Source: a virus
DNA length: 21,805 nucleotides
Virus record (IMG/VR): IMGVR_UViG_3300029893_000077
Location: 1-21,805 of that record
Strand: one strand, 5' to 3'
This document shows positions 1 to 21,805 of the stretch, piece by piece. The notes below the pieces were generated by a model. It had not been told where the DNA came from. It saw only the letters and a program-made list of their open reading frames with translations, and did no database searches. Numbering within the stretch: position 1 is the first letter of the stretch; each line of letters begins with the position of its first letter. A program made the position numbers and the translations under genes.

Positions 1-860
1 TCCACCCTCAGCGTGTCGTGCGCGGCGGTGGTGTCGGTGGAGCGCACCACCAATAGGCCGCCGGAGAGGCCGCCCGCGCCGACGCCCAGTCCGCCGACGG
101 AGGAGCCGAGGACCGTTACAGATGACGCCAAGATGCCTTGGCCGGTTAGATACCCGGCCCCTGAGACGTGCAGAGCGTAGCTGGGCGCGACCAGGCCGAT
201 CCCGACGCCGGTTCCTGTCACCCTGACCTTCTCCGTCCCATTCGGGGTGAAAAACAGCGTGTCGCTGGCTGAGTTCCCTTGAATTCTCGTGTTGCTGTCC
301 CCGAAGTAGTAGCCGAACCCGCTGTCCACTATCACGTTGCCGCTTCCTGTGACCGTCAGCTTTTCCGTCGGAGCGTTTCCGCCAATCACAACCTTGCCCC
401 CGACGGTTGCGATGGTCGTCCCGCCTCCAACGGAGAAGTCACCGGCCACGGCTGCCGTGCTGAGGAACGTGCCTGGACCGAAAACTGTCACCCCACCGCG
501 TATCGTCGCTGTCCCATTTCGCACGTAGAACGTCGTCCCCACCTGCAGGCGCTCCTTGAGGTAGGCGTCCGAGCTCACGGTGACGTTGTAGGCGGTGCCG
601 GGGCTGCCGAGGGCCGTGATCGTCCCCACGTACAGCACCGCCGCGGTGCCGGTCGAAGCCCGCGATCCGTACGTCGGGAAGGTCGAAGCGGAGATGAGGT
701 CGAAGCTGCGGTTGATGCAGCCCCAGATCTGTGTGCCCGTCGCGTTCTGGCGGATCTTCTCGAGCACCAAAGGGCCTGTGGTGTCCTGGCACCCGGCCTG
801 AGCCGCCAGGGCGCTCCCGGTGCCGGCCGCCAACAACCAGATCGTCAGGAGAATCCTCAT
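1..860 (-). CDS. Tail-fibre-like protein with signal peptide, 3' end cut by window
   Basis: The frame is open for 286 codons from the ATG at 860 to the window edge, so the C-terminus is missing. The start shares one base with the TAA of the upstream gene (TAATG), which suggests coupled translation. Residues 1-20 look like a Sec signal peptide: MRILLTIWLLAAGTGSALA, then AQAGC. The mature part is rich in Gly, Thr, Ser and Val. It contains two copies of a short motif, PTEKLTVTGSGNV and GTEKVRVTGTGVGIG, followed by YALHVSGAGYLTGQG. Such 'P..KL.V.G' repeats are common in beta-structured phage tail fibres and spikes. Being last after tape measure and hub genes fits a receptor-binding fibre. The signal peptide is odd, because virion proteins normally assemble in the cytoplasm. 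An exported adhesin or decoy is an alternative. Confidence 0.72.
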   Translation of the reverse strand, partial: MRILLTIWLLAAGTGSALAAQAGCQDTTGPLVLEKIRQNATGTQIWGCINRSFDLISASTFPTYGSRASTGTAAVLYVGTITALGSPGTAYNVTVSSDAYLKERLQVGTTFYVRNGTATIRGGVTVFGPGTFLSTAAVAGDFSVGGGTTIATVGGKVVIGGNAPTEKLTVTGSGNVIVDSGFGYYFGDSNTRIQGNSASDTLFFTPNGTEKVRVTGTGVGIGLVAPSYALHVSGAGYLTGQGILASSVTVLGSSVGGLGVGAGGLSGGLLVVRSTDTTAAHDTLRV

Positions 861-6583: not shown

Positions 6584-7183
6584 CTACAGAGCGTCCGCGT
6601 TCTGGACGACCAGCTTGCCGAACTCCTCGCCCGCGGCCGCGTCGAGGTCCTCGAGCGCGGTGAACTCGAACGCCAGGCCGGCGGGCTGGCCCTTCACGAA
6701 GACCAGCTTCGGCGAGCCGGAGACGTAGCCCTTCGGGATCTGGAACTGGCTCTTGAAGTCGTCCCCCTCGGGGCTCACGTCGCCGCGCACCAGGCAGGTG
6801 TAGAGCTCGACGTCCGAGCCCCGGCGCAGCGGGATGGACTTGGACCCCGGCACGCCGGACGCGGCGTTGACCGTGCTCACCGCTTGGTTGTTGAGCGCCT
6901 TGCGGAATTGCTCGAGGGACAGGTCGTGCAGCGTGAAGGTGACCTTGAGTCCCTCGCGCGTGCGGTAGGCCTTGATCGGGCCGGTAGAGCCGAGGCCATA
7001 GTGCTCCTCGATCGTCTGCGGCATGTCGACCGAGACGCCGTCCTCGCCGTAGTTCTTGGCGCCGTTGGTTCCCAGCTTGAACCAGTTCCCGGCCGGAACC
7101 GCGTCCACGTTCGGGAAGGCCTCGCCTACCGCAGCCAGGTAGACGGTGTACGGTCCTGCGATGATCTCGAAGGGTTCGCTCAT
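6584..7183 (-). CDS. Major tail tube protein (199 aa)
   Basis: The protein is of typical length for siphovirus tail tube subunits and sits between head-tail completion genes and the chaperone/tape-measure block. It begins 'MSEPFEIIAGPYTVYLAAVG' and has a beta-rich body, with 'GLKVTFTLHDLSLEQFRKALNN', 'LRRGSDVELYTCLVRGDVSP' and 'LAFEFTALEDLDAAAGEEFGKL'. The 'EF.AL.D' ending on a beta-sandwich is characteristic of the gpV-like / 'phage tail tube protein' fold. These subunits stack as hexameric rings around the tape measure. The upstream AGGGAGGCCTGAGAC supplies a ribosome site before ATG 7183. There is no signal peptide, unlike its upstream neighbour. Confidence 0.85.
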   Translation of the reverse strand: MSEPFEIIAGPYTVYLAAVGEAFPNVDAVPAGNWFKLGTNGAKNYGEDGVSVDMPQTIEEHYGLGSTGPIKAYRTREGLKVTFTLHDLSLEQFRKALNNQAVSTVNAASGVPGSKSIPLRRGSDVELYTCLVRGDVSPEGDDFKSQFQIPKGYVSGSPKLVFVKGQPAGLAFEFTALEDLDAAAGEEFGKLVVQNADAL

Positions 7184-7197
7184 GTCTCAGGCCTCCC

Positions 7198-7587
7198 TTA
7201 AAGCGAGATCAGCGCCACGGTGATGCCCGTGTCGTTGACCAGCGTGAACGAGACGTTCCCGTTCGAGTCGTTGAACAGCGAGGCGGGCAGCGGCCCGACC
7301 GCCTTGTCGCCGGAAGAGGCGACCACCTCCACCGTCTGGTCGGCGATCGCGAGCCCGCCGACGCTGCCCGGCGTGGTGATGGTCACCGTCGCGTTTCCGG
7401 CGCCCGTCTTCTCGAACAACAGGATGGTCTTCCCGTTGTTGCGGAACTTCCACGTCTCGGTCGACGAGATGAACATCCGAGTCGGCGTGACGCCGGCCTT
7501 CGAGCCCGTCTGGACGGTCAGGTTCGTCGCCGCCATCGAGAGCGCCGGAATCACCGCAAGCAATCCAGCCACGATCAGCTTCTTCAT
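7198..7587 (-). CDS. Virion-like beta protein with Sec signal peptide (129 aa)
   Basis: Residues 1-20 (MKKLIVAGLLAVIPALSMAA) form a textbook signal peptide: two Lys, a hydrophobic core and an A-x-A type site. The mature part, from TNLTVQTGSKAG, with 'KFRNNGKTILLFEKTGAGNATVTI', 'TPGSVGGLAIADQTVEV' and 'VGPLPASLFNDSNGNVSFTL', resembles a small beta-sandwich protein often found among phage structural genes. That family normally starts cytoplasmically at the position of the mature N-terminus. The gene lies between the tail terminator and tail tube genes. The ribosome site TTAGGAGGAATCGG precedes the ATG. Either a virion component has gained an export signal or the family member acts in the envelope. 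There are no cysteines in the mature part. Confidence 0.75.
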   Translation of the reverse strand: MKKLIVAGLLAVIPALSMAATNLTVQTGSKAGVTPTRMFISSTETWKFRNNGKTILLFEKTGAGNATVTITTPGSVGGLAIADQTVEVVASSGDKAVGPLPASLFNDSNGNVSFTLVNDTGITVALISL

Positions 7588-7597
7588 CCGATTCCTC

Positions 7598-8035
7598 CTA
7601 AGCTACCTGGGTTTCCGACGCCAGGAATTCGTACGACAGCACGACGTAAGGCCACTTCGTCTCGGGGTCGAGCAGCGGCTCCGACTGACCGATCGGGTCC
7701 AAGCTGTGGAGCAGCGTCCCGTCGTAAACCTTGCGGCTCATGTACTTGGTGACCTCGGCCACCTCGCGCGCGAGCCTGGCGGCCTCGAAGAGCGTCTCCG
7801 CAAAGCAACCGACCTGGATCCCGCCGCGGTCGAGCTGCAGGTGCCGGTACGGCGGGACGCCCGGGGCGCGGCGAACGACGAGAGACTTCTTGGGCATGTC
7901 CTTCGGTGCGTCGATAGGCAACTCCTCGCCGTAGATGCGGTACCCGTTGCTCTCGTCGCCGAGCAGGGCGCGCAGGTCCTCGCAGTCGGTGTCCTGCTTG
8001 TAGAACGTGATGAGCGCCAGGGTGACGTCCCTCAC
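7598..8035 (-). CDS. Tail terminator / tail completion protein (145 aa)
   Basis: The gene is the last of four small connector genes and precedes the tail tube block, where gpU-like tail terminators are encoded. Features are a short alpha/beta start, 'MRDVTLALITFYKQ', then 'VVRRAPGVPPYRHLQLDRGGIQVGCF' and the helix 'AETLFEAARLAREVAEV'. It ends 'WPYVVLSYEFLASE'. The 'P..r..l...riqv.cya.t..eA..la..v' pattern matches tail-completion proteins. The start is GTG, overlapping the previous stop as GTGA. The terminator would cap the tail tube and join it to the head. Family-level assignment is by pattern and order. Confidence 0.75.
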   Translation of the reverse strand: MRDVTLALITFYKQDTDCEDLRALLGDESNGYRIYGEELPIDAPKDMPKKSLVVRRAPGVPPYRHLQLDRGGIQVGCFAETLFEAARLAREVAEVTKYMSRKVYDGTLLHSLDPIGQSEPLLDPETKWPYVVLSYEFLASETQVA

Positions 8036-8496
8036 CGCGAGAGCTCCCAGCCGCGCTTGATGTTTCGGCCCAGCATCGGATGGATGCGCTCAGCGACCGG
8101 CCGCAGGGTCGGCGCCCAACTGCCGCCGCGCCAAGGCGGGAGCTCCTTAGTCTTGAGTCGACGCACCCGCCGGCGGGACTTGGCGATGCGGAACATGAGC
8201 TTCTGCCGACCGATGATCGAGGTGCGCGTCTGCGTGAACCTGGTTCCCATCTCGAGGTACCAGAAGTACTTGACGGCGGCGCTGCCCCAGAAGCCGGTAG
8301 TGTGTCCGCTCGACTCATGCTGAGCCGGGCTGACGATCCTGATCGAGCGCTCCGCCGTGCCGGTCCTGTTCGTGAAGGGGTGGGTCTCCTTCGCCTGCAT
8401 GACGGCCTGTGACATCGTCTTGTTGATGCCGTAGGCGGTCGCCATCTTCATGCGCTTGATCAGCGCGTCACCCCTCCAATCGAAGTCAGCTGGCAT
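8032..8496 (-). CDS. HK97 gp10-like tail completion / head-tail joining protein (154 aa)
   Basis: The sequence begins with a helix containing 'DALIKRMKMATAYGINKTMSQAVMQAKETHP', then 'NRTGTAERSIRIV', 'GFWGSAAVKYFWYLEMGTRF' and a basic C-terminal half. The order helix, 'TG.a..Si', and 'Yf.ylE.GT' is the classic pattern of HK97 gp10-type proteins. Those are required for head-tail joining. The basic segment 'AKSRRRVRRLKTKELPPWRGGSWAPTLRP' is longer than usual. The ATG at 8496 lies 11 bases inside the preceding gene. It is flanked by the stopper and terminator-type genes, as in lambdoid and HK97-like phages. Confidence 0.8.
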   Translation of the reverse strand: MPADFDWRGDALIKRMKMATAYGINKTMSQAVMQAKETHPFTNRTGTAERSIRIVSPAQHESSGHTTGFWGSAAVKYFWYLEMGTRFTQTRTSIIGRQKLMFRIAKSRRRVRRLKTKELPPWRGGSWAPTLRPVAERIHPMLGRNIKRGWELSR

Positions 8497-8851
8497 CGCT
8501 GTGCCTCCGGAGAACCGCCTCGAGGTGCGACACCTTTCCGCCTTCCACCTTGGTCACCACGACGTCGACGAATAGCGTCCCCTCGAATAGCTGGCGCGAT
8601 CGCCGGTCGGTGACCTCGCGGATCCTGTTCCCGATCTTGACTTTGCTCGAGCGGCGGAATAGCCCGACGATATGCTCGACGGGCTTGAGCGTCCCTCCGT
8701 CGACGGGCACGCTCTTGCTGCGCACGAAGATCGCGCATGGCTCGGCTGGGCTGATGATCTGCCAGTCCTCGGTCTTGCCGCCGTAGCCGTTCTTTGCGCC
8801 CTCGTTCTGCTCCAAGATGGCGCGCATGGTCATCATCGCCGCCACGCTCAT
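8486..8851 (-). CDS. Head closure / stopper protein (121 aa)
   Basis: A small beta-rich protein in the slot of SPP1 gp16-like head stoppers. It starts 'MSVAAMMTMRAILEQNEGAKN' and contains 'YGGKTEDWQIISPAEPCAIFVRSKS', 'EHIVGLFRRSSKVKIGNRIREV' and 'FEGTLFVDVVVTKVEGGK'. The 'G.....W........pc.....' start and the ending on a strand followed by a short basic tail fit head-tail joining proteins that close the portal channel. The ATG overlaps the upstream stop as ATGA. Several Met codons near the start leave the exact N-terminus slightly uncertain. Confidence 0.7.
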   Translation of the reverse strand: MSVAAMMTMRAILEQNEGAKNGYGGKTEDWQIISPAEPCAIFVRSKSVPVDGGTLKPVEHIVGLFRRSSKVKIGNRIREVTDRRSRQLFEGTLFVDVVVTKVEGGKVSHLEAVLRRHSDAS

Positions 8852-9375
8852 GCCAGCGGCAGCCTCCGGTTCCGACCGGTGAAGGCCCGGAACAGCTTCT
8901 CCCTCTCCGCCTGGTAGTCGACGTGGTCGACCGAAACGTCGCCGAGTCGCTCGGCCCCGACGGCCGAGTACCGGACCGCCAGCCTGACCAGGTCCGCCAA
9001 GAGGCGCTTGCGTCCGGCCGTCTCGTCGGCCGGAACGAAGACGACCGTGACGCGCCCACGCCAGCTCGAGGCGGGCTGATCGTCGCCCTGCTTGCGCTGG
9101 ACCCGGTAGCCGTCGTCCAGGAGCTCGTAATCGTTCGCCGCCAGCGGGTAGTCGGTTTCGCCGATGCGCTCGACGGCCGAGCTGATAGACTGAGCCTTCC
9201 GGTCGAGGTGGAGCATCTCGCCCCCTCCCCTCTTGACCTCGGTGGCCTCGGCCAGCGCCCCGAGCCTGTCGATGATCTCCTGGTCCGCGTCCTCAATGAG
9301 GCGCGTAAGCGCGTCGTCGCCGAGGTCGGTTTCGACGTGCTCGCGGATCGCCGACAGGCTTAGGAGCGTGGCCAT
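8848..9375 (-). CDS. Head-tail connector / adaptor protein (175 aa)
   Basis: The N-terminal helical hairpin 'LSLSAIREHVETDLGDDALTRLIEDADQEIIDRLG' is characteristic of gp6/gp15-type adaptor proteins that dock onto the portal ring. The second half, 'RGRVTVVFVPADETAGRKRLLADLVRLAVRYSAVGAERLGDVSVDHVDYQAEREKL', repeats the helical theme expected for this family. It is the first of the four connector genes. It starts with ATG at 9375, three bases after the stop of the repeat-tailed protein gene. The end overlaps the stopper gene as ATGA. Confidence 0.8.
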   Translation of the reverse strand: MATLLSLSAIREHVETDLGDDALTRLIEDADQEIIDRLGALAEATEVKRGGGEMLHLDRKAQSISSAVERIGETDYPLAANDYELLDDGYRVQRKQGDDQPASSWRGRVTVVFVPADETAGRKRLLADLVRLAVRYSAVGAERLGDVSVDHVDYQAEREKLFRAFTGRNRRLPLA

Positions 9376-9378
9376 GCG

Positions 9379-9648
9379 TTACTTCTTGTCGTCGGCCTTG
9401 CGGCCGGGCTTCTCTCCCGCCTTGTCCTCGTCCTTCTTGCCCGCCTTGTCCTCGTCCTTCTTGCCCGCCTTGTCCTCGGACTTCTGGCCGGCCTTCTCCT
9501 CGACCAGCCCCAGCTCGCGAGCCTTGTCGAGCGGGATCTCCTGGCCCTTCGCCGCGAGCAGGAAGCGGTCCTTGGCCTTCTTGTCCTTGGACAGCTTGCC
9601 CGCGGAGTCGACGTAGATCCGCTCGGTGCAGAGATACTTTCCCGCCAT
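9379..9648 (-). CDS. Small head-region protein with charged 8-residue repeats (89 aa)
   Basis: I place the start at ATG 9648, preceded by AAAGGGAGGGAGC, the same leader type as the chaperone gene. Homolog-like text then starts cleanly: MAGKYLCTERIYVDSAGKL. An in-frame ATG at 9693, three bases after the previous stop and with its own GGAGG, would add 15 residues. The body ends 'GQEIPLDKARELGLVEEKAG', a pattern common in small phage head-region proteins. The tail consists of KAGKKDED repeats with imperfect copies and has almost no order-promoting residues. Function is unknown. The neighbours suggest a minor head or connector-associated role. The repeat DNA is listed separately. Confidence 0.72.
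   Translation of the reverse strand: MAGKYLCTERIYVDSAGKLSKDKKAKDRFLLAAKGQEIPLDKARELGLVEEKAGQKSEDKAGKKDEDKAGKKDEDKAGEKPGRKADDKK
9421..9492 (-). repeat. 24-bp tandem repeat, about 3 copies, coding
   Basis: CTTGTCCTCGTCCTTCTTGC plus CCGC occurs perfectly at 9421-9444 and 9445-9468. A third copy with several changes spans 9469-9492. Each unit encodes eight residues (KAGKKDED-type), so copy-number change keeps the frame and would lengthen or shorten a charged disordered tail. Confidence 0.9.
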
Positions 9649-9696
9649 GCTCCCTCCCTTTTGCTTCTCCAACAGGTTGATCGCGAAAGCCATGCC

Positions 9697-11319
9697 TCAG
9701 ATCCTCCTAGTCAGTCGGTCGATGCGTGCCAGGTCGTTCTCCGCCCGGCGCCTCTCCGACTTGTCACCGATCACCATCGCCAGGCTCCGGCGGCGCACCA
9801 TGACCCCGGGCCACGTGGGGGCCAGCTCCTGCGCGCGCCGGTAATGCCGCATCGCCGCCGCGAAGTCGGACGGCATCCCGAGAGCGGCCGCGACCATGAT
9901 CTGGCGGCCGACCATCTCGTGCGCGAAGGAGTCGTTCGGGTGCAACTCCGCGCCCTGCGCCGCGAACTCGAGGCATACCTGGGCGAGTTTCGTACGGTCC
10001 TCTGGCGCGACCTGGCGCATGAGCGCTACGATCGCGTCCAGTTGGCGGCCCAGGTAGTGGACCTCCCAGGGGTTGAGCTCGGCCGCGCGCGAGTACGCGG
10101 CAGCCCGGTCGAAGGCGTCCTTCGTCCGGTGCCCCTTGGCGTAGTGCCAGTCCGCCGCCGCCATGCGGGCCGAGAGGAAGAGCGACAGGGCCGCGGCTGC
10201 GACGTGCGGCCACGGGATCGGAGCCGGAGCCCACCGGGAGGACGCGACCCCGGCGAAGACCGCCAGCATCGCGGTCGCCGAGTGCGGTACCGGGTTGAAG
10301 ATCGCCAGGACTGCGTAGGCCACGCACAGCGCCCGCAGGACGCGGCTATAGCGCGACTCCCGCCAGAGAGCCGCGGCGACGAGGACCCAGCCGGCCAGGC
10401 CGACCAGGCCCGAGGTGGCCAGGACCTGCAGGATCTCGTTGTGCGCGTGTCCCTGGCTCACGGTGGCGCTGCCGTGCGCCGCCACGAAGGCTGGCGTGAT
10501 GTACTGCCTGAAGACCATCGGGAAGGTGCCGGGCCCGGTCCCGACCCAGGGCGAGTCGGACCAGATGGCGATCGCCGACTTCCAGATTTCCAGCCTCGCC
10601 ACATCCGAGACCACCGAGATGGCCCGGGGGTGAGCCGCGAGTAGCAGGATGCCGGCCGCGCCGGCCACCAAGCGCCCGCGCAGCGGTAGGTAGACCGCCG
10701 CCCCCGCCAGGGCGCCGAGCAGCGCCCCGCGAGTGCCGCTCGCCCAGACCCCGGCGAGCGCCAGAGCCAGCGTGACCCATCCGATCCGTCTACCCCACCG
10801 GGCCAGCGCCGCGCCCACCACGGCCAGCATGGCGAGGACCGCCCCGAGGTAGACGGGACCGCCCTGCGTGGAGATGGACCGATCCAAGGCCCCGGCGACG
10901 GGTCGAAGCGGGTCGACGGCGGGGAAGAGGTACTGCCAGATCGCGTAGAGGCAGACGGGGATCCCGACCCAGGCGAAGGCCTCGGCGGCCTCCTCCGGCT
11001 CGGGGCCGAGGCGGGCCACGCCGATCACCAGGGCGGCGTAGAGCGCCACGGCGACGAAGGCGTCGAAGGGGTTGAGCCAGGTTCCGACGATGCTGTACCA
11101 GATGTCTCGCGAGTTCAGCGCGGCGACGGTCCAGCAGCCGAGGCCGATGAGGATGGGCCCGGCCAGGGTCGAGGCCATTTCGCTCGGGCGCAGCAGCAGC
11201 GCCAGCGCCACCAGGGCAAGCGCCAGCAGCTTGGGGAGGATGTAGGGGTCGGCGTTCCATGGCAGCATGAACGCGAGCGCCGCCGTCGCCACCGAGCCGA
11301 GCCAAAGTCGATTTGCCAT
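9697..11319 (-). CDS. O-antigen ligase/polymerase-family (Wzy_C) membrane protein with TPR-like tail (540 aa)
   Basis: This is a polytopic inner-membrane protein with about ten to twelve hydrophobic segments between residues 5 and 390. It has the Wzy_C family signatures: 'ASGTRGALLGAL' with R197, the loop 'WVGTGPGTFPMVF' at 258-270, and 'QGHAHNEILQVLATSGLVGL' at 289-308 with the key His and Asn. In WaaL, Wzy and PglL-type O-oligosaccharyltransferases these residues act on undecaprenyl-linked glycans on the periplasmic side. Residues about 400-515 form helical TPR-like repeats, with 'AAAYSRAAELNPWEVHYLG' and 'AMRHYRRAQELAPTWPG'. It lies between the capsid and connector genes, an abnormal place for such an enzyme. 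The start has only a weak GGGGCGAG leader and lies just after a strong hairpin. Ligase, polymerase and protein O-glycosyltransferase cannot be separated from sequence alone. Confidence 0.88.
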   Translation of the reverse strand: MANRLWLGSVATAALAFMLPWNADPYILPKLLALALVALALLLRPSEMASTLAGPILIGLGCWTVAALNSRDIWYSIVGTWLNPFDAFVAVALYAALVIGVARLGPEPEEAAEAFAWVGIPVCLYAIWQYLFPAVDPLRPVAGALDRSISTQGGPVYLGAVLAMLAVVGAALARWGRRIGWVTLALALAGVWASGTRGALLGALAGAAVYLPLRGRLVAGAAGILLLAAHPRAISVVSDVARLEIWKSAIAIWSDSPWVGTGPGTFPMVFRQYITPAFVAAHGSATVSQGHAHNEILQVLATSGLVGLAGWVLVAAALWRESRYSRVLRALCVAYAVLAIFNPVPHSATAMLAVFAGVASSRWAPAPIPWPHVAAAALSLFLSARMAAADWHYAKGHRTKDAFDRAAAYSRAAELNPWEVHYLGRQLDAIVALMRQVAPEDRTKLAQVCLEFAAQGAELHPNDSFAHEMVGRQIMVAAALGMPSDFAAAMRHYRRAQELAPTWPGVMVRRRSLAMVIGDKSERRRAENDLARIDRLTRRI

Positions 11320-11336
11320 TCGTGTCTCGCCCCGAG

Positions 11337-11365
11337 GGGGCGCCCCCGTTTTCCGAGGGCGCCCC
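11337..11365 (-). other. GC hairpin before the O-antigen ligase gene
   Basis: GGGGCGCCC (11337-11345) and GGGCGCCCC (11357-11365) form a perfect 9-bp stem with an 11-base loop that contains AAAA on the minus strand. It lies between the stop of the exported-protein gene and the ligase start, 18 bases before the ATG. There is no T-run, so it is more likely an RNA stability, attenuation or translation-limiting element than a classical terminator. Confidence 0.65.
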
Positions 11366-11384
11366 GTGTTCAGGGCTCAGTCCC

Positions 11385-11906
11385 CTAGATTCCGCAGGGG
11401 TTGTCTCCGTCCGAGCATCCGACGTAGAAGACCGTCGAGTGCCCCGAGTCGTCCTGGTCGCCGTACAAACCGGTCGTGAACTTCACCGGGTTCGGCGGGA
11501 ACCAGCAGCCGCGGTTCTCGCTCGTGGTGTCGTAGGTCGGGGTCGTGAAGACCTTCGGACTCAGCGCGTACTCGTAGTTCGCGTTGTGGTCCGTGGTTCC
11601 TCCGAGTCCGACGGCCTCGAGCTGGGCCGACGCGGTCGTGTCGAAGGCCATCGAGTACTTCTGCACGGTCCCGCCGAAGGCGCACACGCCGTAGAGGAGT
11701 CCCTCTCCGGACACGAGCAGCTTCGCCGTCCCGGTCGCCACCAGGCGCTTGACCTTCATGCCCATGAAGTCCAGGTTCTGGTGGATGCCGCCCCACTGCC
11801 CGGCCTGGGCGGGCGACTGGTTCCCGCTTTCCGCCGCATGAACCGGAGCGACCGCCAGCGCGGCGAGCGCCAGGGCCACGAGTCCGACCTTCTTCAGCTT
11901 GTCCAT
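11385..11906 (-). CDS. Exported Cys-containing protein in the decoration-protein slot (173 aa)
   Basis: The start is ATG 11906. The nearby ATG at 11912 touches its GGAGG directly, while 11906 has six-base spacing. Residues 1-24 (MDKLKKVGLVALALAALAVA, then PVHA) are a clear Sec signal peptide with a VHA|A cleavage site. The mature chain has four cysteines (about 75, 134, 164, 171), compatible with two periplasmic disulfides. Its start, SGNQSPAQAGQWGG, is Ser/Pro/Ala-rich. The core 'KRLVATGTAKLLVSGEGLLYGVCAFGG' resembles small beta-rich phage capsid-associated proteins. It directly follows the capsid gene, where decoration proteins usually sit, and directly precedes a Wzy_C membrane enzyme. It may be an exported decoy, envelope adhesin or glycosylation substrate. 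No family is recognised with certainty. Confidence 0.75.
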   Translation of the reverse strand: MDKLKKVGLVALALAALAVAPVHAAESGNQSPAQAGQWGGIHQNLDFMGMKVKRLVATGTAKLLVSGEGLLYGVCAFGGTVQKYSMAFDTTASAQLEAVGLGGTTDHNANYEYALSPKVFTTPTYDTTSENRGCWFPPNPVKFTTGLYGDQDDSGHSTVFYVGCSDGDNPCGI

Positions 11907-11943
11907 CGTCATCCTCCGTCGTATCGAGATTTCGTGCTACCAG

Positions 11944-11976
11944 CCCCGGGGCCAGGGGCTGGCCCCAGCCCCGGGG
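11944..11976 (-). other. Very strong GC hairpin after the capsid gene
   Basis: CCCCGGGGC (11944-11952) pairs perfectly with GCCCCGGGG (11968-11976). Inside, GGGG pairs with CCCC around a CTGG loop, with a small CA/A internal loop. It lies 22 bases after the capsid stop and about 40 bases before the exported-protein start. No T-run follows, so it fits an RNA-processing or partial-termination element that separates high capsid expression from downstream genes. Confidence 0.75.
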
Positions 11977-11998
11977 TGCGTCTCGGCCGCGAGCAGCC

Positions 11999-13243
11999 TT
12001 AGGTGAGGTCCACCTCCACGAAAGCCGCCGCGCGATAGATGACGAAGGCCCATCGGCCGTCGGCGCGGACCGCCTGCTTGCCCCTGACGAAGTAGTCGTC
12101 GTGGCTGTCGGAGATCTTCAGCGTGATCCCGCGCCGCTCGACCAGCTCGGAGAAGCGGAAGTCGGCCACGACCGCCGTCAGCTCGGCGATCGAGTCGGCC
12201 TGCGCGACGGGCAAGCCCCAGACCCGCTCCAGGTCCGCCTCCGACGGGTGGCCCCAGACGTAGGCCCCGTCGTTGGTCTTCATGAGGCGGATGCTCTCCC
12301 AGTCGTCGGGATGCATGATCACGCCGCTGGGGATCGCTCGCCCCGTGACCCGGACCTTGGTCATCGCGCGCCGCAGCGCGTCGACGGCCTTGTCGGACGC
12401 GACGGAGTTCCGCGCGTACGACTGCGTCCCGGACTTGTTGAGGATGCCGGTCAGGTTCGGCGCGATGCCGTCGCCGTTGATGATCTGACTGTCGAGCCTC
12501 TGTCGGATCATGAACGGCAGCCGGTTGTTCAGGTAGCCCTGAACCTGGGGCACGTCCTCGAGCTGCTCGTCCGTCACCGGAATGAAGACGGGGATCTTCC
12601 GCACCGTCTCGCTGCGCTCGGTCAGCGCGAGCGCGGCCTCGCCGTAGGCCGATCCCTCCGCCTTCTCCGTGGCGTTGTTGGTGAAGGTCGTCTCCTCCAT
12701 GTAGACCACCGCGGCCTGGCTCGTGCGACCCGGAGGGATCAGGTCGATGACCTGGATGGGTCGCTCGGCCTTCTCGACCAGCCGGCCGGTCCGGATCGAC
12801 TCCGGAGCCCAGCCCGCCGCGGTCTCGAAGAGCGTCTTCAGGTTGACGCCCGCCGGCAGCTCGCGCTCTTTGTTCCAGTAGAACTCCTTCAGCGAGGCGC
12901 CCTTCGGGACGAGCTGCGTGAAGGCCTTACCGATGGCGATCGGCTTGGGCTCCTCCTCGTCCTCCTGGTCCTTCTTCGCGGAGGGGTGCGGGAGGCCTCC
13001 GGCCTTTTCGCGCTCGAGCCAGGCCTTGTAGGCCTCGTCGGTCGAGCGGAAATCCTCGATCTCCTTGACGACCTTGGCGCAGTCGTCGTTCATCTCCCGG
13101 ACCTTCGCGCACTTCTCCTCGTCGGTGCCCGAGATCTCGGTGACCTTCGAGAAGTCCAGGTTCTTGCCCGCCTGCTCGAAGACCTTCCCGAGCTTGGCCT
13201 GGGCCGCGGCCAGCTTTTCCTGCAGCTGCTTGAGCTTTTCCAT
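11999..13243 (-). CDS. HK97-fold major capsid protein (414 aa)
   Basis: The N-terminal 100 residues are a charged coiled coil, 'MEKLKQLQEKLAAAQAKLGK' through 'AYKAWLEREKAGG', then an acidic linker 'KKDQEDEEEPKP'. This matches the delta/scaffolding domain removed by the prohead protease. The capsid domain follows, with 'AAVVYMEETTFTNNATEKAEGSAYGEA', 'IPVTDEQLEDVPQVQGYLNNRL', 'INGDGIAPNLTGILN', 'PSGVIMHPDDWESIRLMK' and 'GLPVAQADSI'. All are typical of Phage_capsid proteins. The C-terminal 'GRWAFVIYRAAAFVEVDL' is the standard P-domain ending. AGGAGG ten bases before ATG 13243 is a strong ribosome site. The protease gene directly precedes it, as in HK97-type head modules. Confidence 0.96.
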   Translation of the reverse strand: MEKLKQLQEKLAAAQAKLGKVFEQAGKNLDFSKVTEISGTDEEKCAKVREMNDDCAKVVKEIEDFRSTDEAYKAWLEREKAGGLPHPSAKKDQEDEEEPKPIAIGKAFTQLVPKGASLKEFYWNKERELPAGVNLKTLFETAAGWAPESIRTGRLVEKAERPIQVIDLIPPGRTSQAAVVYMEETTFTNNATEKAEGSAYGEAALALTERSETVRKIPVFIPVTDEQLEDVPQVQGYLNNRLPFMIRQRLDSQIINGDGIAPNLTGILNKSGTQSYARNSVASDKAVDALRRAMTKVRVTGRAIPSGVIMHPDDWESIRLMKTNDGAYVWGHPSEADLERVWGLPVAQADSIAELTAVVADFRFSELVERRGITLKISDSHDDYFVRGKQAVRADGRWAFVIYRAAAFVEVDLT

Positions 13244-13260: not shown

Positions 13261-14052
13261 CTAGATTCCGCTCTGCAACCGGAGGAAGCGACCGAACTCC
13301 TCTCGAGCAGCTGCGGTCACGGCTGACGGCTCTGGCTGTGCCACCGGCACCAAGAGCGCGGCGACTTGCTGGGCCGTCTTGGTCAAGGAGTCGGCGATCG
13401 CTGCGAGCCGCTCCTTGTTGGCCGCGCTCATCTCGCGGCCCTTCTGTGCGCGGATGTCGGCAAGCGACTTACCGCGGGCGAGGAGGTCCTCCACGGCGTC
13501 AAGCACCGAGAGAGCCTCGTCGCAGAATCGTTTTCCCTCGCCTTCCGGAGTGTCGGCGGACTTCGCCGCCACGGTTCCGGTCCCCTCGCCGGCGCCCACC
13601 AGGACCGGCGACACCTCCCAGACCTTGCAGCCGGGGGAGCCGTCCTCGCGGGGGCGCAGGAAGCGGACGTTCCGGCCCTGATGCTGGCCGGCGGCGTAGC
13701 CGCCCTCGAGGACCTTGAAGCCGTAGGACCACTCCTGCAGCGGCTCCCCGTTCTCGAGGTCGAACTTGAGCGCGGAGAGCCAGTCCTTGGCGGCCTGCAG
13801 CTCGAGGTTGAGCTGGATGTCCGCTACGGCCTTGTCGCCGTCCTCGCTGATGACGGCCTTTCCGATCGGCACGTGGTTCCAGTCGTGGACCGGGACCACC
13901 ATCGCGTCCTGCTTCCCGAAAAAACCCGGCAGCGTCACGTCGCCGTCCTTGTCGACGACGTTGAGCGTGGCGATCACCGCTCGGACTTTGCCGCCGGCGG
14001 CGGCCTTGAGGTCCTCGAGTCCCACGGCGAACGACTTGAAGATCCGTTTCAT
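13261..14052 (-). CDS. HK97-type prohead serine protease (263 aa)
   Basis: The enzyme cleaves the capsid delta domain during prohead maturation. The N-terminal domain shows the family motifs. 'STD'-like strands 'KVRAVIATLNVVDKDGDVTLPGFF' come first, then 'VVPVHDWNHVPIGKA' with the catalytic His near residue 56. 'EWSYGFKVL' holds the catalytic Ser near 109, and 'VWEVSPVLVGAG' near 146-155 completes the U35-like core. The C-terminal 100 residues are helical and include 'AEDLLARGKSLADI'-type text, possibly scaffold-like. The ATG overlaps the portal stop as ATGA. The gene is followed by the capsid gene after 17 bases. Length is normal to slightly long for the family. Confidence 0.92.
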   Translation of the reverse strand: MKRIFKSFAVGLEDLKAAAGGKVRAVIATLNVVDKDGDVTLPGFFGKQDAMVVPVHDWNHVPIGKAVISEDGDKAVADIQLNLELQAAKDWLSALKFDLENGEPLQEWSYGFKVLEGGYAAGQHQGRNVRFLRPREDGSPGCKVWEVSPVLVGAGEGTGTVAAKSADTPEGEGKRFCDEALSVLDAVEDLLARGKSLADIRAQKGREMSAANKERLAAIADSLTKTAQQVAALLVPVAQPEPSAVTAAAREEFGRFLRLQSGI

Positions 14053-16097
14053 GCGCCTCCTGAGAACGCCGGCACCAGGTCTCGGGTGCCGTTGGGGTGC
14101 TCCTCCGCGATCAGCCGGCGGGCCTCGGCGAAGGTGGCCGGCTGCCCGTTGATCCGTTGGCAGTCCTCGTCGGTGTCGCCCAGCCTACCGTCGATCATGA
14201 TCACCTGGTCGATACCGTCGGCCGACTCGTACGCCCGAAGCGCTGAGTTGGTCTGAGCGAAGCGCGTCTCGGTCCTGGCCGTCACCTCCGCCCGAATCCG
14301 GCTCGAGCTCCAGCGGCCGGCTGGGATGGCCTCCTCGAGCTCGCGGGCGATGTCGACCGGACCCTTGCCGTCCTCTCGCCCCGCACGGACCACCTCGATC
14401 GCCCGCGCCCTGGCCGCCTCCGTCAGGTCCACCAGGTCGGCGCGGGTGCCGCCCTCGGAGAGCACCTCGAGCTGGACGTGGTCCGGCAGGTTGACGCCGA
14501 TGCCCATGCCGGCCAGGATCCCGACGGTGTCGTTGTGGACGGCGACGAAGTGGGTGCCGAAGATGCCGCGTAGCTCGCCCCTGAGTCGAGGAACGTTGAG
14601 GCTCGAGAAGATGGTCTCGATCCGCAACTCGTCGCCCGGGTCCGGTGTCGCGGCGGCGACGGCCGCCTTTTCGCTCGCCAGGTAGGCCTGCGCCGCGGCC
14701 TCGCCCATCTTGCCGAAGAAGTCCGAGAGCCTGTTCCGCAGGCGCTTCTCGTGCTGCCGCCTGACGCGGTCCATGGCGCGAAGGACGCGGGCCTGCCGCC
14801 TGTCCAGTCCCTTGGCTTCCTTGGCCGGTGGAGGATCAGGCTCGGGAGCGGGCTCCGGGTCCGCGTCCGGGCCCTCGAGGAAGCCTCCTATCGGCGTGAA
14901 GTAGACGTCGTCGCCTGGCTCCACCTCGAGGCCGAGCCCGCGCTTGGCGACGGCGCGCTTGACCAGGCCGGCGTTCCAGAGTTTGGCCCACCGATCCGCC
15001 GCCTTGTTCTTGTCCTCCTCGAGAGCCCGCACGCTCTTGCGGTCCCAGGCCAGACGCTGGTTCTTGGCCAGCGAAAAGTCCTCGCGCAGCGAGCGGGTGA
15101 GCTCCTGCGCCATGAGGTCCTGGTTCGGGATGACGCAGTCGATCCACGCGATGCGGTGGAGCTCCGAGAGCGTGGCGCCCACCTTGGTCTGCTCCATGCC
15201 CGAGCCGAAGCCGACCACGGCGGCTGGGAGGCCGATCATCGCGCAGACCCGCTCCTCCGACACGTTGCGCACGATGTCGAGGTTCATCTTGTTGGGGTCG
15301 TAGCCGAACTCTTTGACCTCGGTCGGAGCGCCGAGTACCAGTGGGGAGCCCTTGTTGGAGCCGCCGAACTCGTCTTGTACGTACTCCTTGGTCTCCTTCA
15401 GAGCGTCCGGGCTGGAGGCGCCGGCATCTTTGGGCGAGATGATCACCCCGGGCACGCCGCCGTTGAGGAGGAGAGCGGCGACGAAGTTCGCGGACTCGTT
15501 GTCGTTGAATATCTCGCGCAGCAGCATCTTCATCATCGACAGGCCCTTGCGGACGTTGCGCGGGTCGAGGCCGTGGCGGAGGTGGACGACGTCCTGCGGG
15601 GCGAGGATGACCTGCGGTGTGCCGCCGCCGGGCGAGTACTCGTAGCGGTCGATGAAGATGGTCTGGTCGGTCTCGTGCTCCTTGGGCTCGATCATCCAGT
15701 GAGGCACGTACCAGAGCTGCTTGACCTGCCCGGCTTTGTTGCGGAGCTTGATCGCGTAGGCGTTGCCGTCGGTGTACCAGGAGATCAGAAGCGCGATCCA
15801 AAGCGCCGCGCCCGAGTAGAAGGGGTTCGGCTCGGCGAGCAGATGCGTGATCGGGTGCTGGAGGTCGAGCTCCTCCTTGTCCTTGGTCTCGGTGAGGACG
15901 CCCAGGCGAGCCTCGAGCCAGGCGCGCGCGATCCAGAGGATCGGCGCCATGAGGACGTTCGAGCCTAGGCCGTCGCCGACGTAGTGACCGAAGTCGATCT
16001 TGGTGTTGGGCAGCAGCCACCGCAGCCAGCCTCCCGAGCGCGGGTGCAGCATCGACACCAGGGCGGAGGCGGCTTTTGACAGCAGCGCGCGGATCAC
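14049..16097 (-). CDS. Portal protein fused to Mu F / SPP1 gp7-type head morphogenesis domain (682 aa)
   Basis: The true start is GTG 16097, overlapping the terminase stop as GTGA, with GGAGG eight bases upstream. The open frame extends much further upstream, but only as a shadow of the terminase gene. Residues 1-400 form an HK97-type portal: 'HPITHLLAEPNPFYSGAALW', 'DGNAYAIKLRNKAGQVKQLW', 'VVHLRHGLDPRN' and 'MIGLPAAVVGFGSGMEQTKVG'. An acidic Pro-rich linker, PDADPEPAPEPDPPP, lies at 410-424. Residues 430-682 are helical and end in a minor-head domain with 'ARTETRFAQTNSALRAYESA', 'DGRLGDTDEDCQRINGQ' and 'EEHPNGTRDLVPAF'. In many phages these are separate genes. Here one chain would place the minor head protein at the portal vertex. 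Confidence 0.92.
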   Translation of the reverse strand: MIRALLSKAASALVSMLHPRSGGWLRWLLPNTKIDFGHYVGDGLGSNVLMAPILWIARAWLEARLGVLTETKDKEELDLQHPITHLLAEPNPFYSGAALWIALLISWYTDGNAYAIKLRNKAGQVKQLWYVPHWMIEPKEHETDQTIFIDRYEYSPGGGTPQVILAPQDVVHLRHGLDPRNVRKGLSMMKMLLREIFNDNESANFVAALLLNGGVPGVIISPKDAGASSPDALKETKEYVQDEFGGSNKGSPLVLGAPTEVKEFGYDPNKMNLDIVRNVSEERVCAMIGLPAAVVGFGSGMEQTKVGATLSELHRIAWIDCVIPNQDLMAQELTRSLREDFSLAKNQRLAWDRKSVRALEEDKNKAADRWAKLWNAGLVKRAVAKRGLGLEVEPGDDVYFTPIGGFLEGPDADPEPAPEPDPPPAKEAKGLDRRQARVLRAMDRVRRQHEKRLRNRLSDFFGKMGEAAAQAYLASEKAAVAAATPDPGDELRIETIFSSLNVPRLRGELRGIFGTHFVAVHNDTVGILAGMGIGVNLPDHVQLEVLSEGGTRADLVDLTEAARARAIEVVRAGREDGKGPVDIARELEEAIPAGRWSSSRIRAEVTARTETRFAQTNSALRAYESADGIDQVIMIDGRLGDTDEDCQRINGQPATFAEARRLIAEEHPNGTRDLVPAFSGGA

Positions 16098-17557
16098 CGT
16101 ACCGGCCTCCACTCGCCGACCGTGTTCCAGAAATTGATCGCCTGCGTGGCCGCGTCGACCTGGTCGTCGTTGTCGCCATCGGGGAACTGGCCTAGCTCGT
16201 TGATGAACTCCTCGACCCAGGGGAATACCTCTGGATCCGGAATCACGAGGTTCCCCGCCTCCTGGTACGGCTGGGCCGCGTAGGCGCGCGCAAGCTTGCC
16301 GCCCTTGGGGTTGACGAGGATGATCCCGCCGATCTCGCGCTTGAGGACGTTCTCCACGGCGGAGCCGTTGGCCTTGTCCTCCACCAGCTTGCGGTGAGCC
16401 TGTGGCCACCGGCGCGTGAGGGCTCGGAAAGCGTCGAGCGTGGCGGTGAAGGACATGCGGCCGCGGACCTGGTCGAGCAGGTACTCCCGCGCTCCCTTGC
16501 GCCCCCACACCTGGCCGACGACGAAGTCCGTGCCGTCGGTGCCCTTGAAGGTCATGTCCCAGGACTGGATCAGCTCGTCCAGATCCGAGGGCTGCGTGCG
16601 CCAGTAGCCCCAGAGCGCCCGCTTGAAGATGTTGCCCTCCTCCTCTGAGGGGGCCTGCTGGTACTGCGCGGCGTAACGCCGAGTTCCGACCGCGACCTTG
16701 GTCTTGGCCAGCGTCTCCTTGTCCTCGCGCTCCGGGCAGAGCGCGTCCCCCTCCTCGCGCACCACCTCGCGCCCGCTCTTCGGGAAGGAGATCACGGTCC
16801 GCCTCGGAGCCTCCGCCGGCAGGTTCAGGTGGAACCACCCGCCCTGACCTAGGAGGTGGGCGCTCAGGTCCTTGGCGTGGAGCCGCTGCTCGATCAGGAT
16901 GATCGAGCCCCGCTTCTTGTCGTCCAGGCGCGAGTAAAGCGTGCGGTCGAAGTAGTCCCGGACCGCGCGGCGCTCGGCGTCGGACTCGGCGAGCTCGGGG
17001 TTGAGCGGGTCGTCGAGCATGATCACGTCCGCGCCGTAGCCGGTGACGCCGGCGCCGGTGCCGCGGGCCACCATGTGGCCGCGCTCGCTGTTGACGAACT
17101 CGCTCTTGAGGTTCTGGTCCTCTGCGAGCGTGAAGACGTGTCCCCACTTCTCCTGATACCGCGGGGAGCGGATCAGGAGGCGCCGGTCGACGTTGTGCTT
17201 GCTCGCGAGCGGCTGAGAGTACGAGACCGTGATGAACTTCTTCGACGCCCAGCGCGTCCAAGCCCAGGGGGGCGCGAATACCGAGCCGGGCAACGACTTG
17301 CCGATCCGTGGCGGGGCGTTGATGACTAGCCGGGTGATCTCGCCCTCGAGCGCGGCTTGGACGTGCTCGGCGATCGCCTGGGTGTGATACGACTCGATCA
17401 GCGGCACGTCCGGCTCGACCACGTCCCAGTGGCCCTTGAGGAACGGCCACAGGTCCGTCTGGTTGTCCTCGAGGCCGGCCGCCGTCTGGCCGAGCAACTG
17501 CGCGAGGTGGTTAGGCGACTGCATAGCCAGGCTCGCCGCGAGCGCCAGAGCTATCAA
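16094..17557 (-). CDS. terL: Terminase large subunit, packaging ATPase-nuclease
   Basis: This motor packages DNA into proheads. The ATPase domain has a Walker A-like P-loop APPRIGKS (81-88), a 'VSYSQPLA' segment and Walker B DVIMLDD (177-183). The C-terminal RNase H-like nuclease has acidic centres in 'QSWDMTFKG' (about 333), 'LVEDKANGSAV' (about 393) and 'DGDNDDQVDA' (460-469). The pattern matches the TIGR01630-type large terminases. The start is TTG 17557, overlapping the small-subunit stop as TTGA with GGAGG nine bases upstream. ATG 17524 (residue 12) is an alternative but lacks a ribosome site. The length of 487 aa is normal. It is translationally coupled to the portal gene. Confidence 0.95.
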   Translation of the reverse strand: MIALALAASLAMQSPNHLAQLLGQTAAGLEDNQTDLWPFLKGHWDVVEPDVPLIESYHTQAIAEHVQAALEGEITRLVINAPPRIGKSLPGSVFAPPWAWTRWASKKFITVSYSQPLASKHNVDRRLLIRSPRYQEKWGHVFTLAEDQNLKSEFVNSERGHMVARGTGAGVTGYGADVIMLDDPLNPELAESDAERRAVRDYFDRTLYSRLDDKKRGSIILIEQRLHAKDLSAHLLGQGGWFHLNLPAEAPRRTVISFPKSGREVVREEGDALCPEREDKETLAKTKVAVGTRRYAAQYQQAPSEEEGNIFKRALWGYWRTQPSDLDELIQSWDMTFKGTDGTDFVVGQVWGRKGAREYLLDQVRGRMSFTATLDAFRALTRRWPQAHRKLVEDKANGSAVENVLKREIGGIILVNPKGGKLARAYAAQPYQEAGNLVIPDPEVFPWVEEFINELGQFPDGDNDDQVDAATQAINFWNTVGEWRPVR

Positions 17558-19766: not shown

Positions 19767-20378
19767 TCAGGCCTTACCCGCCGCCTTCAGGCACCACTTG
19801 CTGGGGCACTTGCCGTTGTGCCGGCCGCGGGGGCAGGTGAAATCCTCGGACTCGGAATCGGCGAGCTGGGCGGCTCGGGGCGCCCGGCGAGCTGGGCGGC
19901 TCGGGGCGCCATCGGAGCTGAGGCCGAGCGCCGCCTCGAGCTCGGTGCGGACGATGTCGCGCACGCCCTCGATGGTCACGGCCTCGGGCACGAGCTCGCG
20001 GATGCGGCTGTCCACGATCTCGGTGATGCGGTCCAGCAAGGGCAGCTTCTTAGTCGTTTCGGATTTGGGCATGGTCTCTCTCCTTTGCGTTTTGGTTGGC
20101 GTTTCGGTTTGCGGCCTGGTCGATGGCCGGCCTCGCGGCCGGTCCACCTCGAGTTTGAACGCCTCTCGCTGTTGAGCCTCGAGAGCTCGAGCGGCGGTTA
20201 CGGCGGATACGGCCTTCCTCTCCGGCTCCGAGATCTCCACCGGCGCGGCCCCGCAGGCGAGGCAGCTGTAGAGCGTCACCGGCTGAGCGCCGCGGTGCAG
20301 CTCGCGGCTGAGCTGGTGTATCTGCTCGCCGCGGCAGACGCCGCACCAGTGGAGGATCTTGGAGGGAGGCTGGGTCAC
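19767..20378 (-). CDS. Two-part zinc-motif protein, possible internal start (203 aa)
   Basis: The GTG at 20378 overlaps the ParB stop as GTGA, with GAAGGAGG ten bases upstream. The N-terminal part has C12-x2-C15 (HWCGVC) and C39-x2-C42 (YSCLACG), a zinc-ribbon pattern. A low-complexity basic linker, 'RPRGRPSTRPQTETPTKTQ', follows. The second part begins at ATG 20072, which has its own AAGGAGAGAGACC site after an A-rich leader. It reads MPKSETTKKLPLLDRITEIV. It ends in another Cys/His cluster, C-x4-H-x3-C-x4-C (CPRGRHNGKCPSKWC). Both a full-length and a short product of about 101 aa are possible. A 26-bp duplication in the 3' part is described separately. It probably binds nucleic acid. Confidence 0.7.
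   Translation of the reverse strand: MTQPPSKILHWCGVCRGEQIHQLSRELHRGAQPVTLYSCLACGAAPVEISEPERKAVSAVTAARALEAQQREAFKLEVDRPRGRPSTRPQTETPTKTQRRETMPKSETTKKLPLLDRITEIVDSRIRELVPEAVTIEGVRDIVRTELEAALGLSSDGAPSRPARRAPRAAQLADSESEDFTCPRGRHNGKCPSKWCLKAAGKA
19859..19910. repeat. Perfect 26-bp tandem duplication inside a gene
   Basis: The 26 bases starting CGGCGAGCTGGGCGGCTCGG occur at 19859-19884 and again, identically, at 19885-19910. Because 26 is not a multiple of three, the two copies are read in different frames, as GAPSRPARR and then APRAAQLA. The duplication therefore changes which reading frame follows it. Confidence 0.95.
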
Positions 20379-21805
20379 TTCGCCTTGGCCTCCTTCTGCT
20401 GTTCGGCCCATTCCTTCTCGGCTTCGGCCTTCGCCCCTTTCGCCACCTTGGAGCTGACGCCGAGCTCCTCGGCGAAGTGGTCGGTGTAGCTCGGGTCCTC
20501 GTTCAAGAAGATCGACAAGGCAAGCGAGGCGAGCTGCCCCGTGGACGCCTTCTTGAGCTTCTTATCCAGGTCCGTAGAGTTCTTCGCTCCGACGATCATG
20601 AGACCCTGCTCGGAGACGCCCCAGCTGGTGATCAATTGGTCAACCACGATCGCGAGCGCTTTCTGCGGCTGTTTTTCGGCCAGCTCGATCACGGCGTCCT
20701 GCACAGCGTTCTGGACCGCCTCGCCGATGAACGCGGCCTTCGCGTCGTAGGCGGGCCGAGAGACGGGCTGAGAGCTAGGCTGAGAGACTGGCTGCTTGAT
20801 CGGCTTCGGCTTCTCCGCGAGCCACACCTCGCCCGTGCTCTTGGAGACGATCAGCGCCTGGTCGTCCTTGAGCTTGAGCGTGGCCGGGACCTTCTTCTTG
20901 GGCACCCAGCCCTTGAAGGTCTGGCCTTCCCAGACGTTGTAATCCTGGAAGAGGATTGTCTTGGCGCCGTGCTGCTTCTCAAGCTGATCTTGGACTCCAG
21001 CCCAATGCGCCGCCGTCTTCTTGTCGAAGCAGGGCGTATTGAGACAGCCGCCCTTCTCCGCACCGTCGAAGAGTTTGCCCTGGTTACCGGTGTTGTAGGG
21101 GCAGGCCGTGCAGGCGATCTCGTCGGCGAAGGGCTTATTGATCGGGAAGACAGCCTGGTCCAGGCTCGAGCCGAGCTCACGGTCCACCCACTCGGTGAGC
21201 TGCTTGGCGGTGGGGAGCTGCTCGTTGTAGTCCTTGGTCAGTGCCCGCGCGCAGACCTCGCCGCGCTTGTCGGTCGGCACCCTGAGGATCTGGTGCCCGT
21301 GCGCCGGGGTGAGTCGGCCGTCCTCGATCGCGTCGATGATGTTCTCGGGAAGCTCGAGCAGAGCCACGGCGCGGTAGACGTGGCGCTCAGACTTGTCGAC
21401 CAGTTCGGCGAGGTCCTTCACGGTGTACTTGCCCGTCGTCTTGTCGCCGTTGGCCTTGAGCAGCGCCTTGAACGCCCTGGCCTCCTCGATCGGCGTGAGG
21501 TCCTTGCGGTGGATGTTCTCGGCGGCCTGGTACTCGAGGGCCTGGGCGTCGGTGAGCGCGAGCACACGGGCCGGGACGGCGACGAGGCCAGCCAGCTTGG
21601 CAGCGCGAACGCGGCGCTCACCGGCTACCAGCTCGTAGTCCTTGGAGCTGGTGCGCAGCGTGACCGGGCTGATGATGCCCAGGCTGCGGATGTTCTCGGC
21701 CAACTCCTTGATGGCCTGCTCGTCGAACTTCTTGCGGACGTTGCTCACGATGCGGATCTTGTCGAGGGCGACGGGGCCCTCGAAGATGACGGCGGGTGTG
21801 GCGGG
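20375..21805 (-). CDS. ParB-family protein with Cys cluster, 5' end cut by window
   Basis: The frame is open to the window edge, so the true start lies outside. The GTG at 21748 is internal, because the residues before it (VIFEGPVALDKIRIVSNVRK) are part of the ParB N-terminal fold. The ParB/Srx-like core shows 'ELAENIRSLGIISPVTLR', 'YELVAGERRVRAAKLAGL' and 'ALEYQAAENIHRKDLTPIEEARAF'. A helix-turn-helix follows ('KYTVKDLAELVDKSERHVYRAVALLELPE'). A cysteine cluster, ACTACPYNTGN...GGCLNTPCF, resembles PRTRC-type ParB proteins. A Ser/Gln/Pro linker (PVSQPSSQPVSRP) leads to a helical C-terminus. Roles could be partition in a plasmid-like prophage or DNA-binding gene control. No ParA is visible in the window. 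Confidence 0.9.
   Translation of the reverse strand, partial: PATPAVIFEGPVALDKIRIVSNVRKKFDEQAIKELAENIRSLGIISPVTLRTSSKDYELVAGERRVRAAKLAGLVAVPARVLALTDAQALEYQAAENIHRKDLTPIEEARAFKALLKANGDKTTGKYTVKDLAELVDKSERHVYRAVALLELPENIIDAIEDGRLTPAHGHQILRVPTDKRGEVCARALTKDYNEQLPTAKQLTEWVDRELGSSLDQAVFPINKPFADEIACTACPYNTGNQGKLFDGAEKGGCLNTPCFDKKTAAHWAGVQDQLEKQHGAKTILFQDYNVWEGQTFKGWVPKKKVPATLKLKDDQALIVSKSTGEVWLAEKPKPIKQPVSQPSSQPVSRPAYDAKAAFIGEAVQNAVQDAVIELAEKQPQKALAIVVDQLITSWGVSEQGLMIVGAKNSTDLDKKLKKASTGQLASLALSIFLNEDPSYTDHFAEELGVSSKVAKGAKAEAEKEWAEQQKEAKAK

Follow-up and report, generated by a model that had tools for sequence, protein, structure and literature searches.

Pilin-type O-oligosaccharyltransferases, which work beside their pilin gene, transfer a lipid-linked sugar to hydroxyl groups of the exported protein. 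The O-linking oligosaccharyltransferase PglS is reported to have 13 transmembrane (TM) helices and a large periplasmic C-terminal domain, and its catalytic histidine was placed by alignment with WaaL (PMC12800693). Wzy_C proteins are also encoded by phages: the D3 enzyme comes from a lysogenic conversion system of three genes, and VG_p25 of VarioGold (411 amino acids) belongs to a separate cluster on the strand opposite to the VarioGold late genes (PMC9658991). We analyzed a Wzy_C-family gene in a 21,805-nucleotide stretch of viral DNA (IMG/VR record IMGVR_UViG_3300029893_000077; this whole stretch is called the window below), where the gene lies within the late operon and directly follows a gene for a small protein with a predicted signal peptide, which we refer to as the partner.

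The phage protein shares with TfpO/PglS, TfpM and PglL a Wzy_C-type core with a histidine motif, many TM helices and a soluble C-terminal domain (here predicted to be periplasmic, as in PglS), and its gene likewise adjoins that of a small, probably exported protein; TfpM is moreover among its best NCBIfam matches. It differs from these enzymes in that its score falls far below the TfpM cut-off, its partner is not a recognized pilin, and it is encoded in a phage late operon. WaaL of Cupriavidus metallidurans (7tpg/7tpj), a member of the same superfamily, is both the best solved match and the best membrane fold match, but the match spans the core only (WaaL 154–332), and the phage protein adds a TPR domain. 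PEP_O_lig_1 (TIGR03097, the exosortase A–associated O-glycosylation ligase) is the top NCBIfam match for all four family members that we describe below, over the region of the histidine motif (best E = 6.9e-6), but the score of 24.6 bits is far short of the cut-off (188 bits), and no exosortase system was recognized. The D3 polymerase/ligase and VG_p25 are alike in being phage-encoded Wzy_C proteins; tblastn of 50,697 phage records gave no match to either of them, even at E ≤ 1. The partners of the D3 enzyme are an O-acetylase and a polymerase inhibitor, whereas here the partner is a small phage protein with the features of an exported one. Instead of a separate, lysogeny-expressed cluster of the D3 type, we found a gene in the late operon, co-directional with its neighbors, spaced by 3 nucleotides from the next gene and kept in this place in four phage lineages.

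A Wzy_C-family gene between the capsid and connector genes

The gene lies on the minus strand and extends over 540 codons from an ATG at 11319 to a stop at 9697, exactly the interval that an earlier sequence-only reading had delimited. That reading had also placed the gene between the capsid and head-tail connector genes in the same orientation as both, which agrees with the surrounding late genes, all of which are on the minus strand. In order, these genes encode the terminase large subunit (16094..17557; phrog_38, E = 1e-98), the head maturation protease (13261..14052; phrog_80, E = 1.1e-11), the major capsid protein (11999..13243; PF05065, E = 6e-39; phrog_10, E = 8e-51), the 175-amino-acid partner, the Wzy_C protein, a small 104-amino-acid protein (9379..9693) kept in relatives as judged by tblastn synteny, the head-tail adaptor or connector (8848..9375; assigned by synteny and by its L144 orthologue, which matches the phrog_442 head-tail adaptor with E = 2.9e-5), a neck or tail completion protein (8032..8496; phrog_5, E = 6.6e-6), the tail terminator (7598..8035; phrog_123, E = 1.5e-7), a small tail protein, the major tail protein (6584..7183; phrog_117, E = 1e-6) and, beyond it, the tape measure protein. 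The 3-nucleotide spacing noted above separates the Wzy_C stop from the start of the 104-amino-acid gene (9693..9379). The third-position GC content of the Wzy_C gene (0.915) is within the range of its neighbors (0.83–0.95), and its overall GC content (0.717) is somewhat above theirs. Sigma-70 promoter and terminator sites in the gene block did not exceed chance, and we recognized neither an O-acetylase or polymerase inhibitor nor any other gene for surface sugars in the window.

Farther upstream in the window, the portal gene lies inside a 1,133-codon open frame (17450..14049, minus strand), a high-GC open-frame artefact that runs over the terminase gene in a different reading frame. A ParB/KorB-like protein is encoded upstream of the packaging genes both in the window (21805..20375, minus strand) and in L004 (6252–7730).

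The proposed membership in the O-antigen ligase/polymerase family was borne out by Pfam Wzy_C (PF04932), which matched the window protein with E = 5.1e-10 and 39.8 bits, above the gathering cut-off of 31.7, and which matched all four family members. The motifs SGTRGALL, GTGPGTF and HAHNE, on which that proposal had drawn, are all found in the window protein, and an alignment of the four proteins showed R197, R242, H291 and H293 to be invariant. The catalytic core is upheld as well. In the comparison with WaaL and PglL that the sequence-only reading had recommended, a profile of the four proteins matched, in the core region, the solved structures of both WaaL (7tpg, E = 1.5e-10) and an oligosaccharyltransferase (9rmk, E = 2.2e-6), and the PglL-specific Pfam domain was not found in the Wzy_C proteins. 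As a single PDB match WaaL came ahead of the oligosaccharyltransferase by both sequence profile and fold. Among the curated NCBIfam families other than PEP_O_lig_1, TfpM matched two of the four proteins (17.7 bits against a cut-off of 600) and RfaL matched one (E = 0.018, below its cut-off). PHROGs held no family for the protein, searches of phage records (even at E ≤ 1) and of plasmid records found no homologues, and a scan of genome contigs with the single Wzy_C sequence as the query gave no match. The family evidence leans toward a protein ligase but does not settle the assignment.

Hydropathy averaged over the four-protein alignment indicated ~13 TM helices, in keeping with the many membrane segments seen earlier. 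With the loop that bears the histidine motif placed outside, parity puts the C-terminal tail outside as well, and both the active-site loop and the tail are thus predicted to face the periplasm (or the outside). The AlphaFold2 model of the protein is of modest quality overall (mean pLDDT 62.7), and WaaL is its top membrane match (Foldseek). The number of helices and their orientation come from hydropathy and parity alone, whereas the soluble C-terminal domain is modeled with confidence: residues ~395–540 are mostly at pLDDT 80–93 and match solved TPR proteins with a TMt of up to 0.79 (Foldseek), which upholds the earlier description of a TPR-like tail.

Four related phages with the gene and its partner

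A second viral contig, L002 (27,683 bp), is near-identical to the window (99.986% over 20,898 bp). In a survey of 80 capsid relatives this sister contig was the only one with a Wzy_C gene and the other 79 were without it, a pattern that would make the gene a recent singleton. This interpretation was overturned when the connector and major tail protein were used as queries, in that L110 (3300029893_000092) and L109 (3300038829_000010) carry both the 175-amino-acid gene and Wzy_C in the same place; four further viral records from these scans are without Wzy_C. A profile scan added a fourth phage, L144 (3300009285_001137), with the gene order unchanged. The survey of related phage contigs that had been recommended thus places Wzy_C between capsid and connector in L002, L110, L109 and L144. 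The window and the three divergent contigs have in common the order of capsid, signal-peptide protein, Wzy_C, small gene and adaptor, and 83 other related viral records, many of them fragments, are without Wzy_C.

The three divergent phages have Wzy_C proteins that are 41, 46 and 35% identical to the window copy and partners that are 42, 51 and 45% identical to it. Profile scans of the viral collection, run independently for Wzy_C and for the partner, returned the same four phages and no others. Given this agreement, and as far as a pattern-based scan can tell, the two genes are inherited together as a linked pair.

In trees of the capsid (SH-aLRT 100) and of the protease (91), the four Wzy_C phages fall together, next to L007, L008, L009 and L014, which are without Wzy_C, the partner and the signal peptide of the tail protein described below. 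The tree of the major tail protein does not keep the four together. Because capsid and protease both place them in a single clade, the link between ligase, partner and tail-protein signal peptide counts as a single evolutionary event and could reflect hitch-hiking. The association has been kept over a long divergence and is unreplicated, and we regard it as suggestive.

Signal peptides and RNA hairpins around the ligase gene

In each of the four phages the 175-amino-acid product of the partner gene (11385..11912, minus strand) carries a signal peptide of the Sec type. The predicted mature protein starts with an invariant AES, and an alignment of the four orthologues showed two invariant cysteines (C77 and C136). 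Its AlphaFold2 model, a beta-sandwich of low confidence (mean pLDDT 60), has weak matches to small phage proteins, and a PDB fold search with this model returned nothing significant. Kinship of the partner with the small post-capsid proteins of L030, L031, L046 and L050 was not supported on comparison.

Signal peptides, which we called by a simple rule of our own, were also found farther along the late block. The small tail-region protein encoded next to the major tail protein (7198..7587, minus strand; phrog_16194 tail protein, E = 2.3e-10; alignment of 17 orthologues) carries in the window the signal peptide MKKLIVAGLLAVIPALSMA|ATN. Each of the four Wzy_C phages has a signal peptide on this protein, and its orthologues have none at any of the 19 other loci with a clear match (~15 after accounting for near-duplicates). 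Among 105 related-capsid loci scanned, convincing virion-type signal-peptide proteins downstream of the capsid were found in the four Wzy_C phages and in the lineage of L081, L082 and L094. In that lineage two signal-peptide proteins are encoded directly 3′ of the capsid gene (L081 4322–5284 and 5358–6170, and also in L082 and L094), and no Wzy_C gene was seen in the fragment.

A third such protein of the window is fibre-like and lies at the end of the tail block, where it is cut by the window end (3..860, minus strand). Alignment with L144 (13667–14779) and L008 (20730–21221) showed that all three proteins share a cysteine pair (GCQ...GCIN) as well as a Sec-type signal peptide, and the fibre-like protein in the L109 genome also has a signal peptide. 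Tail proteins of tailed phages do not usually have this combination. Because L008 has this signal peptide without having Wzy_C, the signal peptide of the fibre-like protein is either older or independent.

Two strong RNA hairpins flank the partner gene. One lies between the partner and Wzy_C (11328..11377, minus strand; ΔG about −41 kcal/mol; z = −5.2 compared to shuffles) and the other just 3′ of the capsid gene (11943..11992, minus strand), a position at which hairpins are common in relatives. The two strongest 50-nucleotide folds of the late region are just 3′ of the capsid gene and just 3′ of the partner gene in each of the four phages; in L110 the second of these lies inside the Wzy_C open frame as annotated, in its 5′ portion, and the true start of that frame is uncertain. 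The hairpin between partner and ligase reaches z = −5.0 in L144 and is weaker in L109 (z = −2.4 for the whole stretch). Such hairpins may insulate highly expressed structural-type genes, in which case the partner would belong to the abundant class and the ligase to the enzyme class. In the wider group a very strong hairpin right 3′ of the capsid gene is common (L007 1625–1674, as well as L032, L047, L052 and L058), and L031, L046 and L050 have one 3′ of their own small post-capsid gene.

Possible roles of the ligase

We favor, at a probability of roughly 45%, the reading that the Wzy_C protein is a ligase dedicated to the O-glycosylation of phage proteins that are exported, which seems somewhat likelier than remodeling of O-antigen. 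The late operon of this one phage clade would then contain a conserved two-gene cassette, in which the first gene (11912..11385) would provide a small phage protein, rich in beta structure, for export through Sec and the second (11319..9697) a membrane ligase of the Wzy_C superfamily. In the manner of pilin-type O-oligosaccharyltransferases, the ligase would take a host-made lipid-linked sugar and transfer it to hydroxyl groups of phage proteins that have been exported. The partner would be the foremost acceptor and the exported tail-region and fibre-like proteins perhaps further ones, and the hairpin between the two genes would allow the partner to be made at the level of a structural protein and the enzyme at a lower level. 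Such a role would explain why a partner is present and would also account for the signal peptides and TPR domain. Counting against it are the single evolutionary event behind the association, the top rank of WaaL in the PDB, the NCBIfam scores far below the cut-offs, the fibre-like signal peptide in L008 (which is free of Wzy_C), the signal-peptide proteins of L081, L082 and L094 with no Wzy_C seen, and the weak AlphaFold2 models (mean pLDDT 63 for the ligase and 60 for the partner).

A possible alternative, which we hold only tentatively, is the role that the sequence-only reading had proposed, in which the protein acts on the host envelope, as a WaaL-like ligase or Wzy-like polymerase that would alter O-antigen or another surface glycan late in infection, with the effect that progeny avoid debris or that other phages are shut out. 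This alternative has the better PDB score, its top solved match being the O-antigen ligase WaaL, and it has precedent in phage-borne Wzy_C enzymes with such a role, that of D3 and, by prediction, that of VarioGold (PMC9658991). However, the D3 and VarioGold enzymes sit in other gene settings, whereas the gene described here is in a late operon beside a co-inherited phage protein that is probably exported, and the window has no recognized O-acetylase, polymerase inhibitor or other gene for surface sugars. Modification of the envelope would also leave unexplained why partner, ligase and tail-protein signal peptide coincide.

It is unlikely that the cassette is moron cargo in a variable post-capsid slot, with the ligase and partner acting on the host (for example, as a secreted protein for exclusion together with its modifier) and an unrelated signal peptide on the tail protein. 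L007 and L008 do hold other small genes in the same slot, the slot is bounded by hairpins, and the absence of the pair from the neighboring clade fits one gain or loss, but retention of the pair at 35–51% identity with order and linkage intact would be unusual for a transient moron, and the tail-region signal peptide, confined to the Wzy_C phages, would be left unexplained. That the gene is an assembly chimera or a decayed gene of the host that does nothing for the phage, a view for which we found nothing apart from its somewhat elevated GC content (0.717), is already refuted by the 99.986% identity of L002 over 20,898 bp, the same gene order in three divergent contigs, open frames free of stops and invariant catalytic residues; the joining of host and phage DNA, which the sequence-only reading had itself named as a way in which it might fail, is thereby removed, since the placement is kept in four phage lineages.

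To return to a ligase for exported phage proteins, a fuller version of this role seems doubtful. In that version these phages would export the capsid-adjacent protein, the tail-region protein and the fibre via Sec, their own oligosaccharyltransferase would glycosylate these proteins outside the inner membrane, and the products would be joined to particles at or after lysis. If this were true, the virion would carry host-made sugar chains. If the pairing of ligase and partner is real, phages would have a way to decorate the proteins that they export with surface glycans of the host, and one would then have to ask what part exported proteins of structural type play in the biology of phages. To our knowledge, the phage virion glycosylation described so far uses cytoplasmic glycosyltransferases, and a literature search of partial coverage returned no report in which a phage pairs an oligosaccharyltransferase of its own with a phage protein that is exported.

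The Wzy_C phages are a small group of uncultured tailed phages. Genomes with relatives of their capsid protein include those of Actinomycetota and Chloroflexota, among others, and the phage records with the best coverage come from Sinorhizobium and Microcystis; these are too distant for a host to be named. The contig of L109 (G083) also contains, at about 35348–38669 of its reverse complement, QueD-, QueE-, FolE- and QueC-like genes (translations judged by eye), which suggests that the DNA of this one Wzy_C phage may carry a 7-deazaguanine modification.
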